From positions 1-40,795 of the forward strand of contig JALQYE010000012.1 of assembly GCA_023254245.1 (NCBI GenBank): 40,795 nt of DNA. The letters run 5' to 3'. The stretch comes from Emticicia sp. GTDB taxonomy: Bacteria; Bacteroidota; Bacteroidia; Cytophagales; Spirosomataceae. Below are positions 378 to 38,470 of the stretch, piece after piece; within the stretch, counting starts at the first letter, position 1, and every line of letters begins with the position of its first letter. The translations under genes and the position numbers were made by a program. The notes beneath the pieces are model-generated. The model was not told the DNA's origin. It searched no databases and saw only the letters and a list, made by a program, of their open reading frames with translations.

Positions 378-412
378 AAAAAGGGGGCGAAAATATTTTC
401 ACCCCCTTTTTT
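378..412 (-). terminator. Rho-independent terminator (works in either direction) after the first secreted esterase
   Basis: The arms AAAAAGGGGG (378-387) and CCCCCTTTTT (402-411) enclose a smaller palindrome, GAAAATATTTTC (389-400). Read on the minus strand, the G/C arm is followed by TTTTTATTTTG, a typical uridine tail. The hairpin overlaps the stop codon of the esterase gene and separates it from nuoA. Confidence 0.85.
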
Positions 413-3473: not shown

Positions 3474-6185
3474 TTATTCAACATAAACACGTTTAATTAC
3501 ATTAAAATTTTGAGCTCTTACATTAACAAACAATCCTCCTTTCTGGATTTCACTTAAATCAAAAGTACGCCTTGCATCAAAGTTAGGCACGGAGTAACTT
3601 TTAACGAGTGTTCCTTTCAAGTTATAAATATCCACAACAGCATCTTGTAAGTCTTCTTGTGTCTCAATGTTTATAATTGATTTAGGTGCAGGATTCGGAA
3701 ACACACTCATCCCTTGAACTGATGGGTCAATCTTAAACCTATACCCATTTGAAATGGGTGAAAAACACCGTAGGTTTCGTCCAGCACCAAGTTGATACAA
3801 AATAGAACCTTTTACAGCATAAAGTCCCTCTGTTTTTGCTTTAATTACGATTGATGTATTTGGTAATAAAACATTATCTTTATACCATTCATATTTAACA
3901 TCAAAGAGTCCACTGGCAAGAGCCTCAAGTGTAAATGTACCAGTTTGTAATACGCTAATCCCAATTGGAGATGGTTTAACTATGACTTCTAATTCATCAG
4001 AAGAGGGTGAAATACAGCCATTTTGGTCGATAATTTTAACAGTAAAAAAACCTGATGAATTAATTGTTTGTTCTCTTGTGTTCTTTGAATTACTCCATTG
4101 ATAGGCCTTACTTTCAGGGGCAGAAATTCTTACATTATCGCCATCACAAAAAATAGTTGGTCCACTGGCAGTAATCAATGGCTTAGGTGGCAACGGATTT
4201 ACTTTTATTGAAGTAAACGAAGAAGAGTTCTGACAACCAAAATCATTTCGAGCCGTAACAACATATTCACCTGTTCTGGAAACATCAATGCTGGCAGCCC
4301 TATCTCCTGTATTCCATTGTATGCCATTAGTTACAGTCGAAGTTAATCTGACTGATTTATCTGCACAAAAAACAGTTGGCCCATCAGCTGTTATTATTGG
4401 TTTGTCAGGTAATGGATTGATATTTATTCTGATACTCTGTGAAACACCTTCACACCCAAACTCATTCTTCGCACGAGCAAAATAATCGCCACCTCGATTG
4501 ACCATAATCGAAGGACTTGTTTCGCCGTTATTCCAAACAAGATTTTTTACGGTATTAGAAGTTAATCTGACTGATTTATCTGCACAAAAAGTTGTCTCTC
4601 CTTCGGCTGTAATTTTTACATCTGGTTTAGGCAAGATATCCACCGAAATCTCATTCGATTTTGCAAAACAACCCAAATAATTTACTTGACTAACCGTATA
4701 ACTGCCTTTTTGGCTAACTACAATAGATTTTGAACTTGCTCCCGTACTCCAAAAAATATCTTGTTCGACATTTGAAGTCAATTTTACGGTTTCTCCCTCA
4801 CAGAAACTCGTGGCTCCTTCGGCCTGAATTGATGGTGGATTTGATACTGAGAGATTTGTATAGTTTGCAAGTGGTGTGTAATATACATTACCTAAATAAT
4901 CAATAGCACGGCCACGATAAAATCCAGTATTTGTTTCTAATGAAGCTGCGTTGGCAATGTCACTAAAACCATTTGTCCAATAATACTCCTTAAAACCATT
5001 TGGCATGAAGATTTGGACAGGTCTTTGTGTATTTTCAGTATTGCACCTTAAGTCAAAAAAAAGTGGAGATGAGGGAGGAATCGGCCTTGCTTTTTCAAAA
5101 AAACTCAAGTCCAACTTATTATTCCAAGCTCTTGCCAGTTCAATTAAACCTTTATCATAGAAATGAACCCCATCTGTTCTATCAAGGATTTGGTCTGTTT
5201 CGGGGCCTTCAAATGTATTAGGGTAATTCTGAATTACTTGATTTTGAGCATCAATTACTGGTTGATATGTTCCCGAACTAACCCTACTAACTCGACAAAC
5301 CATCCAACTTATATTTTTACCTGTATCAACTCTACTTCTTGAAATAATATACTCTAAGTTCTGGCGATACTTTTCAGTACTTGTACGTTTATCATTATCG
5401 GTTTCTCCTTGATGCCAAAGAATCGAGCGAACGCCAAACATATTGGTATAATAATGTAACGATTTCTTTAGATTTTCGTAAGGATAACCAGGTAAAGCAA
5501 AGTTTCCAGAATAGAAATCTTGCCCCCTTTCACCATCAGCACTTCTACTCCAGGCCTCAATACCCATGGCTTCGAATGCAGTATTGATAAATAATATCGG
5601 AACATTGAGTTTTTCAGCCAGAAGGTCTCCAAGCTTTCCCCAACACCAAGAGCCATTGCCGAGTGGAGCAATTTTAACATTTTCGCTTAGTTGCGAAATA
5701 ACGGGAAAAGGTGGCTCAGTTATTTGGCCGTAAGAATAAAAGTTTGTGATACAATTTACTCTGTCATCATTAGCAGGCGGATTTCCTCGGCCTTCGTATC
5801 CTTGAGCATTCGATTGCCCCGAAATAATTAATACTTCGCCAACTCCCACTTTTTCGATTGTCGAAGTACCAACAATCACTCCACCTCTTGAAGCTCGTAT
5901 TTCAAGCTTGTACCAACCTGCTTGGGCAAAAATATTACCAATGAAAGTACCAAAATTTGGATTAACACTAATAGCAGTCCAATCAACAGCGTTTCCACCA
6001 TTGATAGGAGTTAGTCGTGCATCAATTCTTTCAACTCGGGTCTGAAACGTACCTGCAATAGGAATCATTCCTGTATTAGAGGTGTTTCGTTGAAAAACAG
6101 CCCTATTTACAGGAAAAGTGATTGCTACTTGAGCAAAAACGGATACATGCACCAAGAGAAATAAACTTAAAAAAGTTTTTTTCAT
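3474..6185 (-). CDS. Secreted SGNH/sialate-O-acetylesterase-like protein with Ig-like repeats and T9SS sorting domain (paralogue)
   Basis: This 903-residue protein has the same architecture as its downstream neighbour. It has a clear signal peptide (MKKTFLSLFLLVHVSVFAQ), a beta domain, and an SGNH esterase domain with GQSNAQG (Ser125), LWHQGETD (257-264) and DGVH (Asp338, His341). Four full Ig-like modules follow, with a degenerate one before them, then a type IX sorting domain that begins VFPNPAPK and ends in YVE. Adjacent modules two and three share a 33-nt identical DNA tract. The gene lies 104 nt downstream of obg with no convincing terminator between, so read-through from obg is possible. 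The two esterases probably arose by tandem duplication and act outside the cell on acetylated polymers (inference). Confidence 0.85.
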   Translation of the reverse strand: MKKTFLSLFLLVHVSVFAQVAITFPVNRAVFQRNTSNTGMIPIAGTFQTRVERIDARLTPINGGNAVDWTAISVNPNFGTFIGNIFAQAGWYKLEIRASRGGVIVGTSTIEKVGVGEVLIISGQSNAQGYEGRGNPPANDDRVNCITNFYSYGQITEPPFPVISQLSENVKIAPLGNGSWCWGKLGDLLAEKLNVPILFINTAFEAMGIEAWSRSADGERGQDFYSGNFALPGYPYENLKKSLHYYTNMFGVRSILWHQGETDNDKRTSTEKYRQNLEYIISRSRVDTGKNISWMVCRVSRVSSGTYQPVIDAQNQVIQNYPNTFEGPETDQILDRTDGVHFYDKGLIELARAWNNKLDLSFFEKARPIPPSSPLFFDLRCNTENTQRPVQIFMPNGFKEYYWTNGFSDIANAASLETNTGFYRGRAIDYLGNVYYTPLANYTNLSVSNPPSIQAEGATSFCEGETVKLTSNVEQDIFWSTGASSKSIVVSQKGSYTVSQVNYLGCFAKSNEISVDILPKPDVKITAEGETTFCADKSVRLTSNTVKNLVWNNGETSPSIMVNRGGDYFARAKNEFGCEGVSQSIRININPLPDKPIITADGPTVFCADKSVRLTSTVTNGIQWNTGDRAASIDVSRTGEYVVTARNDFGCQNSSSFTSIKVNPLPPKPLITASGPTIFCDGDNVRISAPESKAYQWSNSKNTREQTINSSGFFTVKIIDQNGCISPSSDELEVIVKPSPIGISVLQTGTFTLEALASGLFDVKYEWYKDNVLLPNTSIVIKAKTEGLYAVKGSILYQLGAGRNLRCFSPISNGYRFKIDPSVQGMSVFPNPAPKSIINIETQEDLQDAVVDIYNLKGTLVKSYSVPNFDARRTFDLSEIQKGGLFVNVRAQNFNVIKRVYVE
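4339..4590 (-). repeat. 33-nt exact direct repeat in adjacent Ig-like modules
   Basis: An identical 33-base string occurs at 4339-4371 and 4558-4590, 219 bp (73 codons) apart. It encodes the module start FCADKSVRLTS in two successive repeats. The other modules of this protein and its paralogue are much more diverged at this point. That pattern fits recent module duplication or gene conversion. Confidence 0.8.
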
Positions 6186-25850: not shown

Positions 25851-26165
25851 ATGGTAGCAGAAGCAAACGACATAAAACTTAACAAAGAAAAATATGAAAA
25901 GGCAGCCTATATCTTAAAGGCTGTGGCTCATCCTACTCGTTTGGCTATCATTCAATTGTTGGATATTCAAGACAACTTAACGGTAAACGAAATCTGTGAA
26001 ACCCTTAATTGTGAACAGTCATTGATTTCACACCATTTGATAAATATGAAATTACGTGGTATTTTGAAATCACACAAAGATGGACTAAATGTATATTACT
26101 CGTTGAAAGAACGTGAGATTACCAAACTCTTAAGCTGCATTGAAAACTGCGAATGCAATATGTGA
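25851..26165 (+). CDS. ArsR/SmtB-family repressor, cysteine-rich; probable sulfide/persulfide or metal sensor
   Basis: This 104-residue protein is a winged-helix ArsR-family regulator. AAYILKAVAHPTRLAIIQLL is the family's first core region. The recognition helix area is ICETLNCEQSLISHHLINM, and the wing ends NVYYSLKE. Such dimers normally repress and are released by an effector. Cysteines are at 49 and 54 in the helix-turn-helix and at 96, 100 and 102 in a C-terminal CIENCEC cluster. That could bind metal or react with persulfide, though the positions do not clearly match the described SqrR/BigR pair. It heads the sulfur genes and has the operator-like repeat over its own promoter, so autoregulation is likely. 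The family is certain; the inducer is inferred. Confidence 0.9.
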   Translation: MVAEANDIKLNKEKYEKAAYILKAVAHPTRLAIIQLLDIQDNLTVNEICETLNCEQSLISHHLINMKLRGILKSHKDGLNVYYSLKEREITKLLSCIENCECNM

Positions 26166-26181
26166 TATTTTTTTAGCAAAC

Positions 26182-26203
26182 TATATGAATAAATTATCAT
26201 ATA
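26182..26203. promoter_or_regulatory. Candidate ArsR operator, site 2
   Basis: TATATG-N10-CATATA has the same arms and spacing as site 1. It sits in the 111-nt gap between arsR and the TauE/SafE gene, 73 nt before that ATG. It may control a second start point for the downstream genes. Confidence 0.6.
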
Positions 26204-26276
26204 AACATATTAAATAGATAAGATTAATAGAGTATCAAACAAATTACTTTTTTTATAGTACAAATTACACAAACGC

Positions 26277-27083
26277 ATGGAAATACTTGGTTTTATTGGA
26301 GCATTAATGATGGGCTTGACCCTTGGGCTAATTGGCGGTGGGGGCTCGATTCTGACAGTACCGATTTTAGTTTATTTATTCTCAGTTGATACAGTTTTGG
26401 CAACTGCCTACTCGCTTTTCATCGTTGGGCTTACAAGTTTGATTGGCTCTTTTAGTCATATTTCGCAGGGAAATGTACACTGGCGTACGGCAATTGTTTT
26501 TGGTATTCCATCAATTATCAGTGTTTACCTGACTCGTATGTACTTCGTACCGCTTATTCCTGAGCAAATTTTTACTATCGGTAGTTTTTCACTCACAAAA
26601 CCGATTTTGATTCTGATTTTCTTTGCTGTACTGATGGTTTTCGCCTCTTATACAATGATTAGAGAGTGTAAGAAATGTAAAGAAAAACCAGTTGGCGAAA
26701 TCAACTACAATTATCCACTGATTTTGATTGAAGGTTTGGTAGTTGGCACCATTACGGGGCTTGTGGGTGCAGGTGGTGGATTCTTGATAATTCCTGCATT
26801 GGTCATTTTGGCTAAACTACCTATGAAACAAGCTGTTGGCACTTCACTGGTAATTATTGCACTAAAATCTCTGATTGGTTTTATGGGCGATGTGAAGGGG
26901 AGCGAAGCCATAAATTGGCACTTTTTGGGCAACTTTTCGGTTATAGCTATAATCGGAATTGTGATTGGAAGTATGCTTTCCAAAAAAGTTTCGGATGAAA
27001 AACTAAAACCAGCCTTTGGATATTTTGTCTTGGTCATGGGACTTTACATCATCACAAAAGAATTATTTTTTCATCACGCATAA
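26277..27083 (+). CDS. TauE/SafE-family sulfite/organosulfonate exporter
   Basis: This 268-residue inner-membrane protein has about eight helices in two homologous halves. Each half opens with the family's Gly-rich loop: GLIGGGGSILTVPILVY (about 18-34) and LVGAGGGFLIIPALVIL (about 161-177). A short soluble loop with a Cys pair (ECKKCKEK, about 130) separates the halves. The family exports sulfite, sulfoacetate or related anions. Here it would remove sulfite made by the persulfide dioxygenase encoded two genes downstream. The methyltransferase gene follows after 14 nt, so they share a transcript. Confidence 0.88.
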   Translation: MEILGFIGALMMGLTLGLIGGGGSILTVPILVYLFSVDTVLATAYSLFIVGLTSLIGSFSHISQGNVHWRTAIVFGIPSIISVYLTRMYFVPLIPEQIFTIGSFSLTKPILILIFFAVLMVFASYTMIRECKKCKEKPVGEINYNYPLILIEGLVVGTITGLVGAGGGFLIIPALVILAKLPMKQAVGTSLVIIALKSLIGFMGDVKGSEAINWHFLGNFSVIAIIGIVIGSMLSKKVSDEKLKPAFGYFVLVMGLYIITKELFFHHA

Positions 27084-27097
27084 AACTCAAATTTACG

Positions 27098-27730
27098 ATG
27101 AATCAGTTAGAGAGAAAAAAGCATTGGGAAAATATCTATCAAACCAAAAACTTTACAGAGGTTAGTTGGTATCAAGAGAGACCCGAAATATCGCTCGGTT
27201 TTTTAAATGAATTTAAAATCGAAAAAACAGCAAACATAATTGACATAGGGGGTGGAGATAGCTACTTTGTTGATAATCTGCTTGATTTAGGATACGAAAA
27301 TATTACCGTTCTCGATATTTCGGAAGCAGCACTAAAAAAAGCTCAACAACGTTTGGGCGAAAAAGCAAAAAAAGTCAAATGGATTGAAGCCGATATTGCC
27401 ACCTTTGAACCAACCGAACAATATGATTTTTGGCATGATAGAGCTGTTTTTCACTTCCTAACCCAAGAAAATGAAATTATAAATTATCTGAAATCAACTC
27501 AAAAAGGAATAAAACCAGCAGGAGTTTTGATTTTAGGCACATTTTCGGAGCAAGGCCCAACAAAATGCAGTGGAATTGAGATAAAACAGTATTCTGAAAA
27601 CTCAATGACAGAACGCCTAAAAACATTTTTTGACAAAATAAAATGTATCACAGTTGACCATATTACACCTTTTTCAACGATACAAAACTTTATCTTTTGT
27701 AGTTTCAAAAAGATAGCACTTGCATCATAA
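27098..27730 (+). CDS. Class I SAM-dependent methyltransferase in the sulfur operon
   Basis: This 210-residue soluble protein has a Rossmann methyltransferase fold. Motif I is NIIDIGGGDSYFVDNLLD (about 46-63), the acidic end of strand two is VLDISEAAL, and motif IV is YDFWHDRAVFHFLT. Later segments are GVLILGTFSEQGPTKCSG and a C-terminal strand ending FIFCSFKK. The substrate is not evident. Its place between the sulfite exporter (14 nt upstream) and the persulfide dioxygenase (39 nt downstream) suggests methylation of sulfide, a thiol or another sulfur or metalloid compound (inference). A generic small-molecule methyltransferase is the alternative. Confidence 0.85.
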   Translation: MNQLERKKHWENIYQTKNFTEVSWYQERPEISLGFLNEFKIEKTANIIDIGGGDSYFVDNLLDLGYENITVLDISEAALKKAQQRLGEKAKKVKWIEADIATFEPTEQYDFWHDRAVFHFLTQENEIINYLKSTQKGIKPAGVLILGTFSEQGPTKCSGIEIKQYSENSMTERLKTFFDKIKCITVDHITPFSTIQNFIFCSFKKIALAS

Positions 27731-27769
27731 ACGCACTTAGAACCAATAATATTAAAGCACTTTAGAACA

Positions 27770-29182
27770 ATGATAGTAGAACAAATTTATACAGGATGTC
27801 TCGCACAGGGGGCATATTATATTGAATCAGCGGGTGAAGTAGCCATCATTGACCCACTTCGTGAAGTACATTCGTATGTGAATAAGGCACAGAAAAACAA
27901 TGCCCAAATCAAATACATTTTCGAGACTCACTTTCATGCAGATTTTGTTTCGGGTCATGTTGAATTGGCTCAAAAAACTGGAGCATCCATCGTTTATGGG
28001 CCCAATGCCACACCTTCATTTAACTGTATTGTTGCAGAAGATGGGCAAGTTTTTGAAATTGGAAAAATCAAAATCAAGGTTATCCATACCCCTGGCCATA
28101 CCATGGAATCCTCGTGTTATTTATTAATCGACGAAAATGGTGCAGAAAACTGTATTTTTACGGGTGATACTTTATTTATTGGCGATGTAGGTCGTCCTGA
28201 TTTGGCACAAAAATCAAATCTTACGATTGAAGATTTAGCCAGTTATCTATACACCTCTTTGCACACAAAAATATTGGCTTTGCCAGATAACTTGATTGTG
28301 TATCCTGCTCATGGTGCGGGGTCGGCTTGTGGCAAAAACATGAGCAAAGAAACGTATGATACGCTCGGAAATCAGAAAAAAGTAAATTACGCCCTTCAAC
28401 CACAAAGTAAAGAGCAATTTATTTCGGCCGTAACAGATGGCCTTACGCCTCCCCCCTACTATTTTCCCAAAAACGTAATGATTAACAAAACAGGTGCCAA
28501 AAACCTTGATGATGTGAAAACAAACATTCAAGCACTTTCGCCCGAAGCATTTGAATTAGCAGCCAACGAACTCGGTGCTGTCATGATTGATACTCGTGCG
28601 GCTCAGAGTTTTAAAGATGGATTTGTTCCGAACTCAATCAATATCGGTATCAAAGGTGACTTCGCTCCGTGGGTTGGTACACTTATCACTGATATAGAGC
28701 AACCTATTTTATTTATTGCTGATGAAGAGAATGTCGACGATGTAATCACTCGTCTCTCGAGAGTTGGGTATGATAATATCGTTGGCTATTTACAAGGAGG
28801 TATCAGTGCGTGGGTTGAAGCAGGTAAAGAAATTGACAGTATCAAATCTATTTCAGCCGACGAGTTTGCTAAAATATACGCCGAAAATGAAGGAAAATTA
28901 TTGGTTAAAGATGTAAGAAAAGAAACCGAATACCGTGCCGAACACGTAGAAGAAGCAGAATGTGTTTCATTGGCTTATTTGAGCAATCACATGGTGGCAT
29001 TCTCAAAAGAAGAAACCAACTATATTCATTGTGCTGGAGGGTATCGCTCAATGATTGCGGCATCCATCCTTAAATCCCGAGGGTATGATAATATCGTAGA
29101 TATAGCTGGAGGCTTTGCAGCAATCGCCAAAACCGATGTACCACGCTCAAACTTTGTTTGTCAATCAAAATTAAAAGTCTAA
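27770..29182 (+). CDS. CstB-like persulfide dioxygenase-rhodanese fusion (copy 1)
   Basis: This 470-residue cytoplasmic protein has three parts. An N-terminal metallo-beta-lactamase domain of the ETHE1/persulfide-dioxygenase type (about 1-245) has FETHFHADFVSGH (His54, His56, Asp58, His63), HTPGHTMES and GDTLFIGDVGRPDL. A rhodanese-like domain (about 258-355) has no Cys where the active loop should be (ILFIADEEN). An active rhodanese domain (about 365-470) has the loop HCAGGYRS, catalytic Cys421. In CstB-type proteins this set oxidises low-molecular-weight persulfides to sulfite and thiosulfate. It ends the arsR-TauE-methyltransferase run and is followed by a terminator. A close paralogue lies at 37055-38470. 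Confidence 0.93.
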   Translation: MIVEQIYTGCLAQGAYYIESAGEVAIIDPLREVHSYVNKAQKNNAQIKYIFETHFHADFVSGHVELAQKTGASIVYGPNATPSFNCIVAEDGQVFEIGKIKIKVIHTPGHTMESSCYLLIDENGAENCIFTGDTLFIGDVGRPDLAQKSNLTIEDLASYLYTSLHTKILALPDNLIVYPAHGAGSACGKNMSKETYDTLGNQKKVNYALQPQSKEQFISAVTDGLTPPPYYFPKNVMINKTGAKNLDDVKTNIQALSPEAFELAANELGAVMIDTRAAQSFKDGFVPNSINIGIKGDFAPWVGTLITDIEQPILFIADEENVDDVITRLSRVGYDNIVGYLQGGISAWVEAGKEIDSIKSISADEFAKIYAENEGKLLVKDVRKETEYRAEHVEEAECVSLAYLSNHMVAFSKEETNYIHCAGGYRSMIAASILKSRGYDNIVDIAGGFAAIAKTDVPRSNFVCQSKLKV

Positions 29183-29217
29183 AGAAAATAAGTAATGCTT
29201 AGGGTAGAATAAATAGA

Positions 29218-29255
29218 AAAAAGGTAAGGGTAATTTTATACCTTACCTTTTTATC
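29218..29255 (+). terminator. Terminator after the first persulfide dioxygenase
   Basis: The arms AAAAAGGTAAGG (29218-29229) and CCTTACCTTTTT (29241-29252) are fully complementary around an 11-nt loop. The arm ends in a T run. It lies 35 nt after the stop codon. Confidence 0.85.
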
Positions 29256-29319
29256 AAACCCTAATTATAGAACATAGTATTAGTAACCTCAAAAGTAAAA
29301 AGTAAAATATTAAACAACT

Positions 29320-29886
29320 ATGATAGAACTCATAAAACAACCGTGGCATTGGGCAGTTGCTGGTGTGATGATTGGATTAACAGTGCCAACGTTATTGTTA
29401 ATCGGAAATAAAACCTTCGGAATATCCTCTTCACTTCGCCATATTTGTGCAGCGTGTTTCCCTGCAAATATTTCGTTTTTTAAATACGATTGGAAAAAAG
29501 AAATCTGGAATTTATTTTTTGTGGTTGGCGTGCTTTTAGGCGGGTTAATTGCCAGTCAATTTTTATCAAATCCGAATGAATTTGTGGTAAATGAGCAAAC
29601 AATGCAAGATTTAAAGGCACTGGGTGTGAAAGATTTTTCGGCAATGATGCCAGCCGATATCTTTAGTATCGAAAATATTTTTACGCTTAAAGGCTTGATT
29701 TTCTTCGTTTTTGGAGGCTTAATGGTTGGTTTCGGTACTCGCTATGCGGGCGGTTGTACGTCAGGTCATGCAATTATGGGGCTATCGAATCTACAATTAC
29801 CGTCGCTCATTGCAACCATTAGTTTCATGGTTGGCGGCTTCGCCATGACTCACTTAATTATGCCTTTAATCTTTAAATTATTCTAA
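29320..29886 (+). CDS. YeeE/YedE-family sulfur transporter, N-terminal half protein
   Basis: This 188-residue inner-membrane protein of the sulfur-transport (YeeE/YedE) family has four or five hydrophobic segments and the family signature YAGGCTSGHAIMGL, with its conserved Cys. Further cysteines lie in HICAACFPANISFF. In related proteins such as TsuA, conserved cysteines pass thiosulfate across the membrane. The next gene starts 2 nt after the stop and encodes the complementary half, so the two most likely form one two-subunit transporter. It takes up or exports a sulfane-sulfur compound (inference). Confidence 0.87.
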   Translation: MIELIKQPWHWAVAGVMIGLTVPTLLLIGNKTFGISSSLRHICAACFPANISFFKYDWKKEIWNLFFVVGVLLGGLIASQFLSNPNEFVVNEQTMQDLKALGVKDFSAMMPADIFSIENIFTLKGLIFFVFGGLMVGFGTRYAGGCTSGHAIMGLSNLQLPSLIATISFMVGGFAMTHLIMPLIFKLF

Positions 29887-29888
29887 CC

Positions 29889-30383
29889 ATGACAAAAAAT
29901 AATATTGATAATACTTTGATTGAAGAGTTTGTGTGCGAAGCACCCAATAATCAAGTAAAAAAAGAAAGTTTCGCCAGCAACATCAAGTACCTAATCGTTG
30001 GGACAATATTTGGAATTGTTTTCGTAAAAGCCGAAATTGTTTCATGGTTCAGAATACAAGAAATGTTTCGTTTGCAATCATTCCACATGTATGGTGTCAT
30101 CGGTACGGCTGTGGTGGTTGGACTCATTTCAGTACAAATTATTAAACGTTTCAAAGTCAAAACCTTTTCGGGCGAAACGGTTTCAATTCAAGACAAAACC
30201 TTTAATAAAGGTCAGATTTATGGAGGCTTAATTTTTGGGCTTGGCTGGGCAATCACTGGGGCTTGCCCAGGACCCTTATTTGCCCAAATTGGTAGTGGAT
30301 TCTTGGCTATTACGGTTACATTTGCCAGTGCAGTAGCAGGAACTTGGCTCTACGGAGCATTCAAAAATAAGCTACCTCATTGA
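29889..30383 (+). CDS. YeeE/YedE-family sulfur transporter, C-terminal half protein
   Basis: This 164-residue membrane protein, translationally adjacent to the preceding YeeE half, has a soluble N-terminus of about 35 residues and then about four helices. The family motif GLGWAITGACPGPLFAQIG carries the conserved Cys. Split YeeE pairs of this kind (second half often labelled DUF6691 or YeeE/YedE) are frequent next to rhodanese and dioxygenase genes (general knowledge). A strong terminator follows, closing a two-gene unit. Confidence 0.87.
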   Translation: MTKNNIDNTLIEEFVCEAPNNQVKKESFASNIKYLIVGTIFGIVFVKAEIVSWFRIQEMFRLQSFHMYGVIGTAVVVGLISVQIIKRFKVKTFSGETVSIQDKTFNKGQIYGGLIFGLGWAITGACPGPLFAQIGSGFLAITVTFASAVAGTWLYGAFKNKLPH

Positions 30384-30405
30384 TTGAGTTTCTCAAATGA
30401 TTTTT

Positions 30406-30450
30406 AGGAGGTTAGTTGATAGCATTTTGCATTTCTAACCTCCTTTTTTT
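30406..30450 (+). terminator. Terminator after the YeeE pair
   Basis: The arms AGGAGGTTAG (30406-30415) and CTAACCTCCT (30435-30444) are fully complementary, with a 19-nt loop and a run of seven T (30444-30450). An apparent ATG at 30416 lies inside this hairpin, which argues against it as the start of the next gene. Confidence 0.88.
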
Positions 30451-30493
30451 ATACTTCTACCTCATCTATAAAAACCTAAAACCTCTATTTAAC

Positions 30494-32194
30494 ATGAAAA
30501 ACTGCAGTACAACCAACCATGCTCCTCCACGAAGGAGTTTTCTAAAAAAGTCAATATTCTCAAGTCTTGGTTTGGCATTCGGGCCAGCAAGTATGGCTTC
30601 AGACATAAAAGATTCAAACGAAGAAAAATCACCCAAAGATAGCACGATAACACTACTTATTACTTCTGATATTCATGCCCAGATACATACGCATGATGAG
30701 TTTTTCTGGGAAAATGGTCAGGCCATTTATCGCAAACGTGGCGGTTTGGCTGTACTAAAAACCATGATTGAACATTACAAGAAGCAGAATCCAGCTAACA
30801 CGATTGTGTATGATGGAGGAGATTTTTTTCATGGACATGCTGTTTCGACCTTTACTGAAGGCGAAGCACTTATTCCGATTTTCAATCACTTGGGTTATGA
30901 CTTAATATTACCTGGAAATTGGGAAGTAGTTTACAAAAAGAAAAAAATGCTCTACGATATGGGGCATACAAATGCTGCCAAAATTTGTGCGAATATGTGG
31001 CATAAAACCAACGATGCCTTCGACGGTGAACTGGTTTTTCAGCCATATTGGATTAAATACGTAGCAGGAATAAAGATAGGATTCATTGGCTATACCGACC
31101 ACCTTACACCCAAGCGTCAATCTCCCGCGTTTAGTGCAGGATTAGTCTTTGAGCATCCCGAGAAAAACGTGGCCAAATACATAAAACTTTTGAGAGAATC
31201 CGAAGGTTGTGAAATAATCTTGCTGATGACTCATATTGGACTTGCTCAGCAAGTTGGCTTAGCCAACAATCCTGCAATTGAAGGTGCTGATTTTATAGTG
31301 GGTGCCGATACACATGAACGTTTACGAAAACCCATCAAAGGACAATATGCCAGTGTTATTGAGTGTGGTGCTTTTGGGTCGTTTCTCGGAAAACTCGACC
31401 TAAATCTCGAAAATGGCAAGCTAAAAAGCTTTAATTATGCACTTTTAGATGTCGATACAGATAAATTTAAGGCTGATAAGCAAATGTTAAATCTTATTGA
31501 GTCGGCTTATGCTCCATTTAAAACTAAAATGGAAGAAGTAATTGGTACAAGCAAAACACCATTGGTAAGGTATTTTGTGATGGAAACGCCAATGGATAAT
31601 CTAATTACTGATGCCATTATGTGGAAATTCAAACCCGATATTGCCCTTTCTAATGGATTTCGATTTTGTCAACCGCTTTCGAGTACTGACCCGAAAACAG
31701 GCTTGATTCCAATCACACGAGAGTTTTTGTGGAATATGCTACCACTCGATAGCGAGGCAAAATCGGGTAAAATAACTGGTAAACAAGTTTGGGAATGGCT
31801 CGAAAAAGAACTTCAAAACGCCTTTGCCAAAGACCCGTCGAAGCGTTTTGGTGGCTGGTTTGTTCGATTCTCGGGCATGGAAGTAAATTTCAATATCGAA
31901 AAAGAGTTTGGTAAACGCCTAAATTGGGTTAAGATTTCAGGCAATCCCATCGATTTACAGCACGAATATTCAATTATTGCTTGTGAAAGAGAGGGCGACC
32001 CAGACGATACCCTTTGCCGAATTGATAAAGTAAAAGAGCCAAAAAACTTAAAAGTTTTGCTGCATGATATTGTCGAAGAGTATTTGAAGGTTCATTCACC
32101 CATTTCGCCCAAACTCGAAAAGCGAGCAACGGCGAGCGATGCACCCGATACGCTGTTAACGCAATTACGTGGCTATGACTATGAATTTATGTAA
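30494..32194 (+). CDS. Tat-exported SoxB-like dinuclear metallohydrolase (5'-nucleotidase superfamily)
   Basis: This is a 566-residue protein from the ATG at 30494; an upstream ATG at 30416 falls within a terminator. A twin-arginine signal (PRRSFLKKS, Arg13-Arg14) predicts Tat export of a folded, metal-loaded enzyme. The metallophosphoesterase domain has SDIHAQ (Asp59, His61), YDGGDFFHG, PGNWEVVY, LLMTHIG and GADTHERL. The Trp after the metal-binding Asn resembles SoxB's HWE rather than the NHE of ordinary 5'-nucleotidases. The C-terminal 5'-nucleotidase domain includes FGGWFVRFSGM. SoxB hydrolyses the sulfate group from a sulfur-bound carrier. The adjacent TsdA-like cytochrome and DsrE protein support a sulfur role. 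A periplasmic nucleotidase is the alternative. Confidence 0.8.
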   Translation: MKNCSTTNHAPPRRSFLKKSIFSSLGLAFGPASMASDIKDSNEEKSPKDSTITLLITSDIHAQIHTHDEFFWENGQAIYRKRGGLAVLKTMIEHYKKQNPANTIVYDGGDFFHGHAVSTFTEGEALIPIFNHLGYDLILPGNWEVVYKKKKMLYDMGHTNAAKICANMWHKTNDAFDGELVFQPYWIKYVAGIKIGFIGYTDHLTPKRQSPAFSAGLVFEHPEKNVAKYIKLLRESEGCEIILLMTHIGLAQQVGLANNPAIEGADFIVGADTHERLRKPIKGQYASVIECGAFGSFLGKLDLNLENGKLKSFNYALLDVDTDKFKADKQMLNLIESAYAPFKTKMEEVIGTSKTPLVRYFVMETPMDNLITDAIMWKFKPDIALSNGFRFCQPLSSTDPKTGLIPITREFLWNMLPLDSEAKSGKITGKQVWEWLEKELQNAFAKDPSKRFGGWFVRFSGMEVNFNIEKEFGKRLNWVKISGNPIDLQHEYSIIACEREGDPDDTLCRIDKVKEPKNLKVLLHDIVEEYLKVHSPISPKLEKRATASDAPDTLLTQLRGYDYEFM

Positions 32195-32195
32195 T

Positions 32196-33281
32196 ATGAA
32201 AAATTTAGCAAACAATAAACTATCAAAATTTGGGCAACTACTTAATCTAATTAGCTGGTTATTAGGTGGTTCAATTCTATTAGTTATCCTATTAGTCGGA
32301 TATTTTACAGGCATTTTTAATAGAACAAATGCTATTCCAATTACTGTAACTACAGAGAATAAACCATATAAACCCGAAAAAACTGTCTGGAAGCTCATTA
32401 GTATGGACGCTGTTGTGCATGAACCCGACCCAGAACTCGTGAAATATGGCAGAGAATTGATTGCCAATACAGCATATTATTTAGGGCCAAAAGGAAAAGT
32501 GGCTCAACAAACCAATGGCATGAATTGCCAAAATTGCCACTTAGATGCAGGTTCGAGGGTTTGGGGGAATAATTATGGAGCTGTAGCTTCAACTTACCCA
32601 AAATTCAGAGAGCGTTCAGGTACAAAAGAAAGTATCGTAAAACGAGTGAATGACTGCATGGAACGCAGCCTGAATGGTCGTGGGCTTGATAGTACAAGCC
32701 GTGAAATGCGTGCCATCGTAAGTTATATTAAATTTATTGGGCAATGCGTGCCTAAAGATACGATTCCAAACGGTACAGGTATCTGGAAATTGAAATTCAT
32801 GAATCGAGCAGCTGACCCAACCAAAGGCCAAGTTGCTTATGAGCAAAAATGTGTGAGTTGCCACGGAAAAAATGGCGAAGGGCTGAAAAGTCCCGATGGC
32901 ATTGTTTATACGTATCCTCCACTTTGGGGACAACATTCCTATAACATTGGGGCTGGTCTATTTCGACTTTCTCGCTTAGCTGGCTACATAAAAACCAATA
33001 TGCCATTTGGAGCTACTTACGAAAAGCCGCAATTATCTGACGAAGAAGCCTGGGATATTGCCGCTTACGTTAATTCTCGCCCACGGCCAACGAAAGATTT
33101 AAGCAAAGACTGGCCAAAAATTTCGGGTAAACCAATTGACCATCCTTTTGGGCCATACTCCGATAATTTTTCTGAAGAACAGCACAAATTTGGGCCTTTC
33201 AAGCCGATTGATGAATTCAAGAAAGCAGAGAAAAAGAAACAAGAAGCTCTCAAAAATAAAACTCAACAAATAAAATCTTAA
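32196..33281 (+). CDS. Membrane-anchored dihaem cytochrome c, TsdA-like thiosulfate dehydrogenase family
   Basis: The 361-residue protein starts at the ATG one base after the SoxB-like stop; an overlapping ATG at 32169 is less likely. One N-terminal helix (about 16-38) anchors it, with the rest in the periplasm. There are two haem c sites, CQNCH (111-115, followed by LDAGSR) and CVSCH (219-223, followed by GKNGEG). Cys154 in NDCMERSLNG corresponds to the unusual Cys haem ligand of TsdA. The second domain has YPPLWGQHSYNIGAGL and IKTNMPFG, both TsdA-like. TsdA joins two thiosulfates into tetrathionate or does the reverse. A Lys-rich tail (about 335-361) is extra. It could take electrons from sulfur bound to a carrier or from free thiosulfate; which one is open. 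Confidence 0.85.
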   Translation: MKNLANNKLSKFGQLLNLISWLLGGSILLVILLVGYFTGIFNRTNAIPITVTTENKPYKPEKTVWKLISMDAVVHEPDPELVKYGRELIANTAYYLGPKGKVAQQTNGMNCQNCHLDAGSRVWGNNYGAVASTYPKFRERSGTKESIVKRVNDCMERSLNGRGLDSTSREMRAIVSYIKFIGQCVPKDTIPNGTGIWKLKFMNRAADPTKGQVAYEQKCVSCHGKNGEGLKSPDGIVYTYPPLWGQHSYNIGAGLFRLSRLAGYIKTNMPFGATYEKPQLSDEEAWDIAAYVNSRPRPTKDLSKDWPKISGKPIDHPFGPYSDNFSEEQHKFGPFKPIDEFKKAEKKKQEALKNKTQQIKS

Positions 33282-33301
33282 ACGATTAAATCAAAATAAT
33301 T

Positions 33302-33721
33302 ATGAAGAAAATATTCGTATTACTCGCCTTTCTATCAAGCACTTATGCTTTTGCACAAACCGATAATGGCGAAAAACACAAAATTGTTTTTCAGTTTGTA
33401 TCGGGCGACACTCTTTCGCAGCATAGTTTGGTAAATAACCTCAAAAATCTTCGTGAAGGCTGGCCTAAAGCAGCCGTTGAGGTGGTTTTTCATGGCAATG
33501 GAATATTTATGGTCATGGGCGAAAAAACAAAATATGCCAAAGAATTAGAAGATTTTGCGGTCAAGAAAGATATTAAATTGGTGGTCTGCGAAAACACCAT
33601 GAAACAAAAAAAGATTGTAAAGTCGCAACTTTTACCCTTCGTTAGTACCGTTCCGATGGCAATCGCTGAAATCGTAGTTAAGCAAGAGCAGGGCTGGACA
33701 TACCTCAAAGCGGGGCTGTAA
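33302..33721 (+). CDS. Periplasmic DsrE-family protein with a single cysteine
   Basis: This 139-residue protein has a clear Sec signal peptide (MKKIFVLLAFLSSTYAFAQ). The mature part fits the DsrE/DsrF fold: IVFQFVSGD at the first strand, VEVVFHGNGI, then LVVCENTMK, placing the family's conserved Cys at residue 96, the only Cys in the protein. DsrE-type proteins carry persulfide sulfur on this residue or form part of sulfur relays. Export to the periplasm next to a SoxB-like enzyme and a thiosulfate-type cytochrome suggests a periplasmic sulfur carrier (inference). It lies 20 nt after the cytochrome gene. Confidence 0.82.
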   Translation: MKKIFVLLAFLSSTYAFAQTDNGEKHKIVFQFVSGDTLSQHSLVNNLKNLREGWPKAAVEVVFHGNGIFMVMGEKTKYAKELEDFAVKKDIKLVVCENTMKQKKIVKSQLLPFVSTVPMAIAEIVVKQEQGWTYLKAGL

Positions 33722-33758
33722 AGTTAGTATTCTACACGGCTTAAGTTTAAGTTAAACG

Positions 33759-35132
33759 ATGAAAAATTTGATAATAATGGCACTTTTAGTGTCATCAGGA
33801 ACCGCTTTTGCTCAAAATCAAGCAGTGAAACAAGATACGTTCTCTTTGAGGCGTCTTTTTAGTAATGGTAAAATTAAGGGGTCGGTAAGGCAATTTTCAA
33901 TGTTCACTGATAATCATTCAGGGCTTTCTGATTACTATGCTTTAGCTATTGGGGCTGGCTTGAATTATGAAACCAAGCGTTGGAAAAATATGCAATTTAG
34001 CTTTGGGGGCTTTTTCGTACATGATTTAGCCTCAAGCAATTTCTCAAAAGCCGACCCTACCACTAAAACCATTAGCCGATACGATATTGGGCTTTTTGAT
34101 ATTTTAGAACTCAACAATCAGCTCATTAGTCGAGTTGAGAACCTTAACATCAAGTATTTCTATAAAAAATCTACTTTGATAGTTGGCAAACAGGTATTAA
34201 AAACGCCTTTGGTGAATCCGCAAGATGGCCGAATGACTTCTTCAATGATGGAAGGAGTTTATGCTCATTTCAATCAACTAAAAAACCTGCACCTCGAAGG
34301 GGGATGGTTATACAGAAGTAGTCCACGCTCTACTGTAAAATGGTTTAGCGTGGCAAACTCGATTGGCACTTATCCGATGGGCATAAACACCAACGGCACA
34401 AAAGGGAATTATTTAGATAATATTTCGAGCAAAGGCCTATTCATTTTAGGTGGAAATTATGATTTTAACGAATCCTCTAAATTATCAGCATGGAATTATT
34501 TCATCGAAAATGTAAGTAATACTTCGATGATACAATGGAATCAAGATTTTGACCTAAAAACGCATAAAATTAAGTATGGTTTGCAGTTTTTCAGTCAAAA
34601 TGCTATCGAAGACGGAGGAAACTCAGACCCAACCAAAACCTACATGGCGGCCAATAGCAAAGCTATAGTTTTGGGGGCCATGCTTGGTTTGACTAAAAAA
34701 CAAAACTCGTGGACACTCAATTATACTCGAATCACGAAAGATGGTCGTTTTCAGTTTCCGAGAGAGTGGGGACGTGACCCATTTTTTACATTTTTACCCC
34801 GCGAACGCAACGAAGGCTTGGGTGGAGTCCATGCAGTAAGTGGCACTTTTAGCCGAAATATTACTTCTAAAAATCTACTCTTTGATGTTGGCTTAGGAAA
34901 ATATATTTTGCCAGGTGTGAAAGATTTTCGATTAAATAAATACGGAATGCCCTCTTATACACAATTAAATGCTGGCCTAAAATACATACCTAAAGGCATT
35001 ATGGAAGGCATTGATATTCAGCTACTTGCCATAAGAAAATGGAATAATGGGCAACTATACAATGATGAAAAATTCCGCATCAATAAAGTAGATATGACGA
35101 ATTATAATGTAGTTTTAAACTATAATTTCTGA
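33759..35132 (+). CDS. Outer-membrane porin (OprD-like beta-barrel)
   Basis: This 457-residue protein has a signal peptide (MKNLIIMALLVSSGTAFAQ), alternating-polarity strands throughout and a terminal Phe (VVLNYNF), as expected for an outer-membrane barrel. The start GKIKGSVRQFSMFTDN and the stretch VGKQVLKTPLVNPQDGRMT resemble the OprD/substrate-specific porin family. It lies 37 nt after the DsrE gene and 6 nt before the AraC gene, so it belongs to the same transcript. It may admit thiosulfate or another sulfur anion; the family assignment is moderate and the substrate is inferred. Confidence 0.75.
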   Translation: MKNLIIMALLVSSGTAFAQNQAVKQDTFSLRRLFSNGKIKGSVRQFSMFTDNHSGLSDYYALAIGAGLNYETKRWKNMQFSFGGFFVHDLASSNFSKADPTTKTISRYDIGLFDILELNNQLISRVENLNIKYFYKKSTLIVGKQVLKTPLVNPQDGRMTSSMMEGVYAHFNQLKNLHLEGGWLYRSSPRSTVKWFSVANSIGTYPMGINTNGTKGNYLDNISSKGLFILGGNYDFNESSKLSAWNYFIENVSNTSMIQWNQDFDLKTHKIKYGLQFFSQNAIEDGGNSDPTKTYMAANSKAIVLGAMLGLTKKQNSWTLNYTRITKDGRFQFPREWGRDPFFTFLPRERNEGLGGVHAVSGTFSRNITSKNLLFDVGLGKYILPGVKDFRLNKYGMPSYTQLNAGLKYIPKGIMEGIDIQLLAIRKWNNGQLYNDEKFRINKVDMTNYNVVLNYNF

Positions 35133-35138
35133 AAGTTT

Positions 35139-36020
35139 ATGCAAAAGTCGATTCCAATCATAACTATAGAGCAGCTTAATTCGTGCGATAAAAATATCTT
35201 GATGAAACTTGATATTCGTCGATTAGAAGACCACATGAAAACGCTTTCATCGGCCGATTTTCCGCACCGACACGATTTCTATAATCTGATTTATATCAAA
35301 CAAGGAAGCGGCACACACGATATTGATTTTAAGCGATTTATTGTTGAGCCAAAGCAACTCTTCTTCATGAACGATGGGCAAGTGCATGAGTGGGATTTAA
35401 GTGCTGATACTGTTGGTTACACACTTTTTTTCAAGAAAGAATTTTATGAGGTCATCGAAAAAGGGCTTTCGTTACAGGCATTGCCGTTTTTCAATAATAA
35501 CCACAATGATGCCCCATTAGTAGTGTTTTCGGACGAAGATGGGCAGCGAATTGAAAATCTTTTTGAGGAAATCATTATTGAGTTTAAAGCCAATCAACCT
35601 CACCGAGACACGCTCATTAAATCTATACTGAAAATGATTCTGATTCACTCAATTAGAATTTACGAGCCATTTTACAAAGGCGATAGCACAGAGCTAAATG
35701 TCTCAAAAATCAGAACCTTCGAAATGCTCATCGAAAAGCATTTTAAGGAATATAAATCCGTTAAAGATTTTGCTGATAAACTAAATATTACGGCCAATTA
35801 TCTGAATGCCATTTGCACAAAAACAGTCGGACGCACAGCGGGTGAGCTTATCCGAGATAGAATTGTGCTGGAAGCCAAACGCTTATTGCTTCACTCATCT
35901 ATTTCGGTCTGCGAAATGGCCTATCATTTAGGCTATGACGACTGCTCGTATTTTATCAGAGTTTTTAAAAAAGAAGTGGGTTCTACTCCCGAGCAATTTC
36001 GTTTAATCAATCGTTCCTAA
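35139..36020 (+). CDS. AraC-family transcriptional regulator
   Basis: This 293-residue regulator has an N-terminal cupin sensing domain (about 35-110, with FPHRHDFYNLIYIKQGSG and FMNDGQVHEWDL). The C-terminal double helix-turn-helix is at about 192-290, with DFADKLNITANYLNAICTKT and AYHLGYDDCSYFIRVFKKE. AraC proteins of this kind usually activate nearby genes on binding a small ligand. It is inside the SoxB-like operon, 6 nt after the porin gene, so it may control its own transcript. Two layers of control over the island, ArsR and AraC, would follow. Confidence 0.92.
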   Translation: MQKSIPIITIEQLNSCDKNILMKLDIRRLEDHMKTLSSADFPHRHDFYNLIYIKQGSGTHDIDFKRFIVEPKQLFFMNDGQVHEWDLSADTVGYTLFFKKEFYEVIEKGLSLQALPFFNNNHNDAPLVVFSDEDGQRIENLFEEIIIEFKANQPHRDTLIKSILKMILIHSIRIYEPFYKGDSTELNVSKIRTFEMLIEKHFKEYKSVKDFADKLNITANYLNAICTKTVGRTAGELIRDRIVLEAKRLLLHSSISVCEMAYHLGYDDCSYFIRVFKKEVGSTPEQFRLINRS

Positions 36021-36026
36021 ATAACT

Positions 36027-36242
36027 ATGAAAACAACACTTAATAATTGGAAATTGTGGCTCATTATAAGTCTAACGCTCGGCTTAGCACCTTTCGTTCC
36101 AGAACCTCATATCGTTGGAAAACTCCGTTGGCTCATGGGTGGTGCAGTAGGTATGCAACCCATCGACTGGTTCGATTTATTACAACACGGATTTCCATTT
36201 ATATTACTTTTTAGGGCATTAATAATCAAATTTCGCAAATAG
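36027..36242 (+). CDS. Small membrane protein at the end of the SoxB-like operon
   Basis: This 71-residue protein has two hydrophobic segments (about 8-23 and 50-66) around the polar loop PFVPEPHIVGKLRWLMGG. Proteins with this APFxPEPH loop are widespread and are sometimes labelled RND transporter, although too small for that; I do not know their function. It begins 6 nt after the AraC gene and is the last gene of the run. Confidence 0.75.
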   Translation: MKTTLNNWKLWLIISLTLGLAPFVPEPHIVGKLRWLMGGAVGMQPIDWFDLLQHGFPFILLFRALIIKFRK

Positions 36243-37054: not shown

Positions 37055-38470
37055 ATGAAAATCGAACAAATTTATACGGGTTGTTTAGCACATGCTGCTT
37101 ATTATCTTGAAAACAACGGTGAAGCTGCCATTTTCGATCCCCTTCGTGAGGTTCAACCATACATTAATAGAGCTGAAAAGAACAATGCAAAAATCAAATA
37201 TGTTTTTGAAACGCACTTTCATGCAGATTTTGTGAGTGGGCACCTCGATTTAGCTCAAAAAACTGGGGCAAAAATTGTCTACGGACCAACTGCCAAACCA
37301 GCTTTTGAAGCCATCATTGCCGAAGATAATCAGATTTTTAAGATAGGTGCGTGCAAGGTAAAGGCAATTCACACGCCAGGACATACGATGGAAAGTACCA
37401 CTTATTTACTCATTGATGAAAACGGACAAGAGCATGGCTTGATTACTGGCGATACGCTTTTCATCGGCGATGTTGGTCGACCAGATTTGGCCCAACACGT
37501 CATTGCTGATTTGACACAAGAGAAGCTCGCTGGACATCTTTTTGACTCGCTTCGTAATAAGATTATGCCACTTTCCGATGATTTAATCGTTTATCCAAAC
37601 CATGGTGCAGGTAGTGCCTGCGGAAAGAATATGAGCAAAGAAACAACCGATACACTCGGGAATCAGAAGTTGTTTAACTATGCTCTCAGAGCCGATATGA
37701 CTAAAGAAGAGTTCATCAAGGAAGTTTTAACTGGCCTAACAACTCCCCCAGCCTATTTCCCTAAAAATGTACTGATGAATATCAAAGGCTATGAAAGCAT
37801 TGATACCGTTTTGGATAGAGGAGAAAAAGCACTCTCGGTAAATGATTTTGAAGTAGTAGCTAACGAAACCGAAGCATTGATTTTAGATAGCCGCCAAACG
37901 GATGATTTTGCCGCAGGTTTTATTCCGAATAGCATAAACATTGGACTGGATAGTAATTTTGCGATGTGGGTCGGAGAATTAATCCCTGATATTAAACAAG
38001 AAATTCTACTCATAACTGATGAAGGAAAAGAAGAAGAAACTATCACTCGTTTGGCTCGTGTGGGCTACGACTACGCCATCGGATTTTTGAAAGGCGGGTT
38101 TGAGACTTGGAAATCGGCAGGAAAGGAGATTGAAACTATTGATAGAATTTCGGTTGATGAGTTTGTGGAGAGATACAAAACCGAACATCCACTCGTAATT
38201 GATGTACGAAAGAAAAGCGAGTACGACTCCGAACACATCATTGATGCCATTAATATTCCGCTAAATGCTATCAATGACCATTTGGCAGAGATACCCAAAA
38301 ATGCACCATTTATTTTACACTGTGCGGGTGGCTACCGAAGCATGATTGCGGCTTCGATTCTTAAACAACGTGGATGGGATAATTTTGTCGATGTTAGGGG
38401 TGGATTTGCTGCTATCTCAAAAACCGAAGTTCCTAAAACAGCTTACGTTTGTCCAAGCACACTTTTGTAG
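37055..38470 (+). CDS. CstB-like persulfide dioxygenase-rhodanese fusion (copy 2)
   Basis: This 471-residue paralogue of the protein at 27770-29182 has the same three domains. The dioxygenase part has FETHFHADFVSGH (His54, His56, Asp58, His63) and GDTLFIGDVGRPDL. The first rhodanese-like domain lacks the catalytic Cys (ILLITDEGK at that point). The last domain has HCAGGYRS (Cys423). The two copies align end to end without large gaps but differ at many positions, so this is not a recent duplication. It stands alone between two terminators with a candidate ArsR site just upstream. It may serve a different substrate or a different expression range (inference). Confidence 0.93.
   Translation: MKIEQIYTGCLAHAAYYLENNGEAAIFDPLREVQPYINRAEKNNAKIKYVFETHFHADFVSGHLDLAQKTGAKIVYGPTAKPAFEAIIAEDNQIFKIGACKVKAIHTPGHTMESTTYLLIDENGQEHGLITGDTLFIGDVGRPDLAQHVIADLTQEKLAGHLFDSLRNKIMPLSDDLIVYPNHGAGSACGKNMSKETTDTLGNQKLFNYALRADMTKEEFIKEVLTGLTTPPAYFPKNVLMNIKGYESIDTVLDRGEKALSVNDFEVVANETEALILDSRQTDDFAAGFIPNSINIGLDSNFAMWVGELIPDIKQEILLITDEGKEEETITRLARVGYDYAIGFLKGGFETWKSAGKEIETIDRISVDEFVERYKTEHPLVIDVRKKSEYDSEHIIDAINIPLNAINDHLAEIPKNAPFILHCAGGYRSMIAASILKQRGWDNFVDVRGGFAAISKTEVPKTAYVCPSTLL

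Follow-up and report, generated by a model that had tools for sequence, protein, structure and literature searches.

Can a SoxB-type hydrolase take part in thiosulfate oxidation where no SoxYZ carrier is found? The question is raised by a block of 11 genes, all on the + strand (25851–36020), in contig JALQYE010000012.1 of Emticicia sp., analysed here over a stretch of 40,795 nucleotides (nt; the window). A first-pass annotation, whose stretch starts at 30494 and so lacks the upstream part of the block (25851–30383), had described a SoxB-like hydrolase exported by the twin-arginine (Tat) route, a TsdA-like cytochrome, a DsrE-family protein, a porin and a regulator, spaced 1–37 nt apart, and had proposed a new periplasmic thiosulfate pathway. 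Coordinates and Pfam and NCBIfam matches bear out the genes, their order and their spacing: the TsdA-like gene lies 1 nt after the SoxB-like gene and is followed by the genes for DsrE (+20 nt), OprD (+37 nt) and AraC (+6 nt). Gene content, linkage, family placement and the lack of a SoxY match are observed directly in this work. The block is probably a thiosulfate/tetrathionate oxidation cluster, real and conserved, in which no SoxYZ was found, and we consider it fairly likely to be the Bacteroidota version of the SoxYZ-independent TsdA–SoxB thiosulfate pathway, the TsdA and SoxB steps being drawn by analogy from mutants of another organism, Erythrobacter flavus.

The precedent for a SoxYZ-independent pathway

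E. flavus is an alphaproteobacterium. According to Zhang et al. 2020 (PMC7608252), strain 21-3 oxidises thiosulfate through TsdA, which yields tetrathionate, and SoxB, without SoxYZ. Deletion of tsdA stops thiosulfate loss; when soxB is deleted, tetrathionate accumulates and no sulfur is seen in liquid culture, a little remaining on plates (PMC7608252). Supplied with tetrathionate, the tsdA mutant can still produce sulfur (PMC9426585). The coupling of TsdA and SoxB is thereby reported genetically, the mutants leading both papers to deduce tetrathionate as what SoxB acts on (PMC7608252, PMC9426585), and tsdA and soxB homologues are said also to co-occur in Bacteroidetes (PMC7608252). Therefore the coupling of TsdA chemistry to a hydrolase of SoxB type, which the first-pass annotation had put forward as new, was already known.

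The Emticicia block shares the outline of the E. flavus pathway, in which TsdA makes tetrathionate, a SoxB-type protein comes next, metallo-beta-lactamase/rhodanese (MBL-rhodanese) Sdo proteins oxidise sulfur and the Sox complex is absent: tsdA is clustered with a SoxB-type gene, an MBL-rhodanese is present and no soxYZ was found. It differs in that the E. flavus report, in the portion available, names no role for DsrE, OprD or YeeE, and in that its hydrolase belongs to a clade marked by GNWE and GxDTHE motifs (E. flavus SoxB, D0Y83_01365, lies outside the tree comparison). The hydrolase clade and the DsrE partner, together with the Bacteroidota setting, look like new variants, while the core of TsdA plus SoxB without SoxYZ has been known since 2020.

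SoxY is not found in carriers of the hydrolase

The first-pass annotation had seen no SoxY, SoxZ or SoxA. Indeed, SoxY and SoxZ have no match anywhere in the Emticicia genome, which is 81.6% complete, in searches in which both models were silent in all 14 named controls; nor was SoxA found, PF21342 (SoxA/TsdA) matching the TsdA of the block only (SoxX and SoxCD were not searched for). Since these own-genome searches for SoxY and SoxZ prove nothing alone, positive controls in other genomes were used, and the incompleteness of the genome makes comparison the stronger evidence. The SoxZ model, applied to Emticicia only, rang in 5 of 5 control genomes. SoxY was found in none of the 46 genomes of the family that carry the SoxB-like gene, 43 of them in a survey in which the positive control G119 rang and three (G000, G018 and G245) in another. 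Among 395 sampled Bacteroidota, SoxY rings in 47, of which 44 belong to family f36, two to f34 and one, weakly, to f53; the 45 above the cut-off all fall in f36 or f34. None of the 19 genomes in this sample that carry the SoxB-like clade (>700 bits) is among the 47, and on the family and 395-genome searches a hidden soxY in relatives was rejected. The block thus shares with the complete Sox pathway (SoxXA, YZ, B, CD) a periplasmic setting and a SoxB-type hydrolase for thiosulfate oxidation, and differs from it in that SoxY, SoxZ and SoxA were not found.

The hydrolase forms a clade of its own

The hydrolase matches Pfam 5_nucleotid_C (69 bits) and the SoxB model TIGR04486 (253 bits, under half of the cut-off of 550, which places it outside canonical SoxB by that measure). 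In a tree of 57 proteins, drawn midpoint-rooted and with the SoxB row L088 left out as a miscalled open reading frame (ORF), a branch with 99/95 support sets off four nucleotidases with GNHE/D motifs and one annotated UDP-sugar hydrolase. On the SoxB side stand canonical SoxB (8 rows, 100/100), a clade of short SoxB-like proteins from Bacteroidota, alphaproteobacteria and Bacillota (12 rows, 100/96), the clade of the block (30 rows, 100/100), which the canonical group excludes, and, on a long branch, one further Bacteroidota row with Trp at the nucleotidase-His position. This position holds Trp in 30/30 rows of the block's clade, 8/8 of SoxB, 12/12 of the short clade and one of the five nucleotidase rows, the other four having His. 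Compared with canonical SoxB (PDB 2wdc, 4uwq), with which it shares the fold and this Trp, the hydrolase has N for H before the Trp (GNWE in 30/30 clade rows, HWE in 8/8 SoxB rows) and D for H at the first position of the HTH motif (D in 29/30 clade rows and G in one; H in all 25 SoxB, short-clade and nucleotidase rows). We take the GNH and HTH positions to be the catalytic His and metal ligands of nucleotidases.

A structure model of the hydrolase (pLDDT 87.7, pTM 0.85) lies nearest to SoxB in VIA-align (Z 40.2, 2.1 Å over 481 residues), the best nucleotidase giving Z 38.1 and 3.0 Å over 467 residues. It is scarcely credible that the protein is a periplasmic nucleotidase or sugar-phosphate hydrolase lying in a sulfur cluster by accident: the 5_nucleotid_C domain, the top Foldseek match to a nucleotidase and the annotation of a plasmid counterpart as “bifunctional metallophosphatase/5'-nucleotidase” would suit this idea, but the invariant Trp, the separation in the tree from the four nucleotidases with His and the near-constant linkage to tsdA all speak against it. 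The hydrolase has neither the GNH(E/D) motif of 5'-nucleotidase/UshA nor a place among nucleotidases, and the plain nucleotidase was rejected on tree and motif. It stands in a clade of its own, apart from 5'-nucleotidases as well as from canonical SoxB, and the tree called for in the first-pass annotation does not put it among nucleotidases.

As a separate observation, Cys392, two residues past the invariant Arg390, is invariant in 54/54 rows of alignment A3 and replaced by Gly in 3/30 clade rows of the tree set, the deep-branching ones; it may be an active-site or disulfide Cys.

The cytochrome is of TsdA type

The cytochrome matches Pfam SoxA-TsdA_cyt-c (43 bits) and Cytochrome_CBB3 (55 bits). 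Four of its five distinct PDB matches are named thiosulfate dehydrogenase, and the fifth, 5lo9, which we take to be a TsdBA fusion, is listed as Cytochrome C; none is named SoxA. The best TsdA structure match reaches 139.7 bits (E 1.1e-39), the alignment being to 4wqc, and the SoxA model TIGR04484 gives 30.7 bits against a cut-off of 110. The protein is therefore closer to TsdA than to SoxA on the basis of PDB matches and profile score, and a SoxA-type cytochrome was rejected on the same grounds. As in TsdA (4wqc, 5lo9), there are two haem c sites with Cys and Met at ligand positions: both CxxCH motifs, Cys154 (in DC(M/F)ERSLNG) and Met269 are invariant in 17/17 relatives, in agreement with the Cys haem ligand claimed before. 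Its differences from TsdA are an N-terminal membrane segment, a conserved C-terminal tail (DWP...DHPFGP...QHKFGP) and a haem-2 pattern like that of Campylobacter jejuni.

In this pattern Asn directly precedes Met in 17/17 relatives and Lys stands two before Asn in 14/17 (K-x-N-M; K266, N268 and M269 in Emticicia), matching the Campylobacter TsdA, a tetrathionate reductase, and not that of A. vinosum. The likeness makes the reverse direction possible, so that the enzyme may reduce tetrathionate. Extended to the cluster, this would yield a device for tetrathionate respiration and detoxification, in which TsdA would reduce tetrathionate and sulfane sulfur would be cleared by the hydrolase together with the MBL-rhodanese. 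We hold this to be very unlikely, as the cluster also has an oxidative sulfane branch (a probable persulfide dioxygenase and an exporter) and an Asn254-to-Lys exchange is reported not to have turned the enzyme towards oxidation (PMC5146829), so the haem-2 motif alone does not set direction. Separately, the annotation around a Chelatococcus TsdA that is 44% identical shows no neighbouring sulfur genes.

The hydrolase and TsdA are linked across Bacteroidota

Neighbourhoods were compared at 80 SoxB-like loci, which were the top-scoring ones among at least 583 relatives and are thus biased to close ones; 46 of the 80 are well flanked, with 5 kb on both sides of the SoxB-like gene. ORF calling undercounts partners because of its overlap filter (TsdA 72, DsrE 39), and a six-frame search found TsdA in 75 loci and DsrE in 40. 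TsdA is present in 45/46 well-flanked loci; over all 75 loci that hold it, it is always on the same strand (75/75) and within 700 nt in 60/75. Across 150 genomes of the family, the SoxB-like gene occurs in 46, TsdA in 88 and DsrE in 84; TsdA accompanies the SoxB-like gene in 44/46 genomes, against 44/104 genomes without it, and in the two exceptions (G024, G455) the gene lies at a contig start. The Fisher tests of co-occurrence on these genomes ignore kinship. The association of the two genes is more than chance and recurs across many Bacteroidota.

It extends to plasmids. The core cluster (SafE, MBL-rhodanese, TsdA, DsrE, SoxB-like, OprD and the YeeE halves) is found on plasmids of Runella slithyformis (pRUNSL04 of strain DSM 19594) and R. 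rosea, and a plasmid of Pontibacter akesuensis has a SoxB-like gene and a c-type cytochrome. A version of the cluster with the short SoxB-like clade occurs on a Hymenobacter plasmid, and the short clade holds the same setting in G526 (L198), one of 19 tsdA neighbourhoods from genomes without the block-type gene; a conjugative plasmid of Bosea combines it with a TsdA-like cytochrome (36% identical), Blh, two YeeE and SafE. On Bacillota plasmids of Cohnella (L036) and Sporosarcina (L172), short-clade genes stand beside TusA, DsrE, an MBL hydrolase, SafE, TlpA and CcdA in what may be a third, haem-free setting: nothing in the stretch shown is annotated as a c-type cytochrome.

DsrE pairs with tsdA and may carry sulfur

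The exported DsrE protein matches Pfam DsrE (PF02635) with 33.5 bits against a gathering cut-off of 22.7, and its only Cys, Cys96, is invariant in 14/14 relatives, which agrees with the single Cys described earlier. DsrE occurs with TsdA in 80 of the 84 DsrE genomes of the family. Of 97 DsrE places, 64 (in 58 genomes) have a tsdA on the same strand no more than 400 nt away, dsrE being the downstream gene in 61, and the 58 genomes with a tsdA–dsrE pair divide into 30 with the SoxB-like gene and 28 without, so that DsrE also occurs without this hydrolase. Since the SoxB-like gene and DsrE are each nearly always found with TsdA and not strictly with each other, we read both as acting on the TsdA product. 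No description of the pair, or of this cluster, was found in the titles and abstract openings that searches of Creative Commons-licensed PubMed Central papers listed.

Could DsrE stand in for SoxY? In such a cycle, its Cys would be loaded either by tetrathionate that TsdA has made or by TsdA itself, in the way that SoxY is loaded by SoxAX, to give DsrE-Cys-S-S-SO3-; hydrolysis by the SoxB-like enzyme would then leave sulfate and a DsrE persulfide, to be passed to YeeE. The archaeal DsrE3A of Metallosphaera cuprina, a protein taken to be cytoplasmic, with two conserved Cys and TusA as partner, differs from the DsrE of the block, which is exported, has one Cys and is paired with tsdA. As a fellow DsrE-family protein, however, DsrE3A binds on Cys the thiosulfonate it takes from tetrathionate (PMC4175335), the group that SoxB meets on SoxY, and a DsrE-for-SoxY cycle is plausible for this reason. 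The thiosulfonate of SoxY (-S-S-SO3) is reported to be able to coordinate the manganese ions of SoxB, and tetrathionate to serve for loading SoxY (PMC5336275); TsdA is reported to act by way of an S-thiosulfonate on its Cys and to be a homologue of SoxAX (PMC4423706). The tight pairing and the invariant Cys96 also favour the carrier role.

Distribution tells against it, besides the differences from DsrE3A and the 28 pairs without the hydrolase. DsrE is absent from 19 of the 46 well-flanked clusters: eight of these genomes have it elsewhere, and in 11, all metagenome bins by title, no such DsrE was found. The closest relative, G010 (94% complete), keeps the SoxB-like gene (85% identical) and TsdA in its operon without DsrE and OprD, and DsrE was not found anywhere in that genome, which argues against DsrE as a requirement. 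DsrE as an obligate part was accordingly rejected. Of the 46 well-flanked loci, 27 have DsrE, five more an exported single-domain rhodanese (called by a rough hydrophobicity rule for signal peptides) and 14 neither. The carrier cycle, advanced in the first-pass annotation, thus keeps the support of the pairing and of the DsrE3A chemistry and loses that of constant presence; we regard it as a plausible but tentative proposal, less likely than not. A broader form, held with the same reserve, would see a SoxY-like cycle on another fold, in which thiosulfonate-loaded exported DsrE might be the true substrate of the distinct SoxB-like clade, and tsdA–dsrE a two-gene module, widespread in this part of the Bacteroidota, that gained SoxB-like, YeeE and persulfide dioxygenase genes.

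Pairs of tsdA and dsrE, overlapping to about 30 nt apart by our ORF calls, were also seen at L187, L188, L189, L190, L192, L193 and L197, with no SoxB-like or YeeE gene found within the stretch examined. At L219 (Spirosoma linguale pSLIN02), a TsdA-like cytochrome is followed by a DUF1791 gene, probably a DsrE partner, and further on by a UPF0324 protein and a molybdopterin oxidoreductase, a possible sulfite-oxidising extension.

A proposed mechanism and the points against it

The data led us to a model of the favoured TsdA–SoxB pathway in which we infer every reaction in Emticicia sp., which way TsdA runs, and what DsrE, OprD, YeeE and SafE each do. Thiosulfate would enter through the OprD porin, and the membrane-anchored TsdA would couple two thiosulfates to tetrathionate, passing electrons to the respiratory chain. 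Sulfate would then be released by the SoxB-like dimetal hydrolase, which would take off a terminal sulfonate either from tetrathionate itself or from a thiosulfonate that derives from it and is bound to a protein. The leftover sulfane sulfur would be taken by exported DsrE, or an exported rhodanese, and imported by the two-half YeeE transporter; MBL-rhodanese would oxidise it to sulfite, for export by SafE.

Several observations weigh against this pathway. The hydrolase falls short of the canonical SoxB cut-off, the first three Foldseek rows for its model are a nucleotidase, and its clade is without any member of known activity; a long-branched haloarchaeal protein annotated as a 5'-nucleotidase also groups on the SoxB side and has the Trp (GNWD). 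The haem-2 residues are those of a tetrathionate reductase. No assay of purified E. flavus SoxB was found in the available portions of the E. flavus reports. Half of the TsdA genomes of the family (44/88) are without this SoxB-like gene, and within the genus the operon at L204 (G004) is without SoxB-like, DsrE and OprD genes while keeping ArsR, SafE, MBL-rhodanese, both YeeE halves, TsdA, AraC, DUF983 and the second MBL-rhodanese; the SoxB-like gene is therefore an optional module.

The remainder of the block

Pfam profiles were searched against nine of the region's proteins and NCBIfam profiles against eight; the ArsR, SafE and methyltransferase genes lie outside these scans and were named by sequence and annotated plasmid counterparts. 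SafE, MBL-rhodanese and the YeeE halves recur beside the cluster in relatives, ArsR and the methyltransferase seldom. The first MBL-rhodanese is probably of the persulfide dioxygenase type (Blh/Sdo-like). A hairpin that separates the SoxB-like gene from the second YeeE half is a probable terminator or attenuator, and with its T run it suggests that the block may be two transcription units.

Table 1. Features of the block and its downstream border; loci are the 80 SoxB-like loci
Feature	Coordinates	Strand	Evidence and recurrence
ArsR-type regulator (presumed from sequence)	25851..26165	+	First gene of block; same-place orthologue in L018, L019, L097; 4/80 loci
TauE/SafE-type exporter, probably sulfite	26277..27083	+	Runella plasmid proteins in same setting annotated “sulfite exporter TauE/SafE”; 48/80 loci
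Class I methyltransferase (named by sequence)	27098..27730	+	3/80 loci
MBL-rhodanese fusion	27770..29182	+	Pfam Rhodanese 77.6, Lactamase_B 57.7 bits; Blh NF040641 66.8 bits (cut-off 625)
YeeE/YedE half-transporter 1	29320..29886	+	Sulf_transp 63.4 bits
YeeE/YedE half-transporter 2 (DUF6691)	29889..30383	+	DUF6691 39.2, Sulf_transp 37.2 bits
10-pair hairpin, then T run	30406..30444	+	Fold -17.8 kcal/mol, z -5.2; 0/200 shuffles equally stable
Tat-exported SoxB-like metallohydrolase, own clade (GNWE, GxDTHE)	30494..32194	+	RRSFLK twin-arginine motif; tree, model, profile scores
TsdA-type dihaem cytochrome	32196..33281	+	N-terminal hydrophobic (membrane) segment; Cys154 and Met269 at haem-ligand positions
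Exported DsrE-family protein, one Cys (Cys96)	33302..33721	+	Signal-peptide-like N-terminus by sequence; Pfam DsrE
OprD-family outer-membrane porin	33759..35132	+	Pfam OprD 56.5 bits
AraC-type regulator	35139..36020	+	HTH_18 68 bits
Second MBL-rhodanese, past DUF983	37055..38470	+	Rhodanese 107.6 bits; best match of a protein in 39/80 loci

One of the two MBL-rhodanese paralogues is thus inside the block and the other shortly after it, and more than one such protein is common in relatives. Elsewhere in the window, 411–3356 and 3474–6185 encode two neighbouring large proteins that resemble each other, look secreted, contain repeated modules with Cys and are alike at the C-terminus.

Significance

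Surveys that score canonical sox genes alone would miss genomes of this kind, SoxY having been found in none of the 19 carriers. The pairing of DsrE with tsdA, in turn, makes the substrate of SoxB in the absence of SoxYZ a concrete question.

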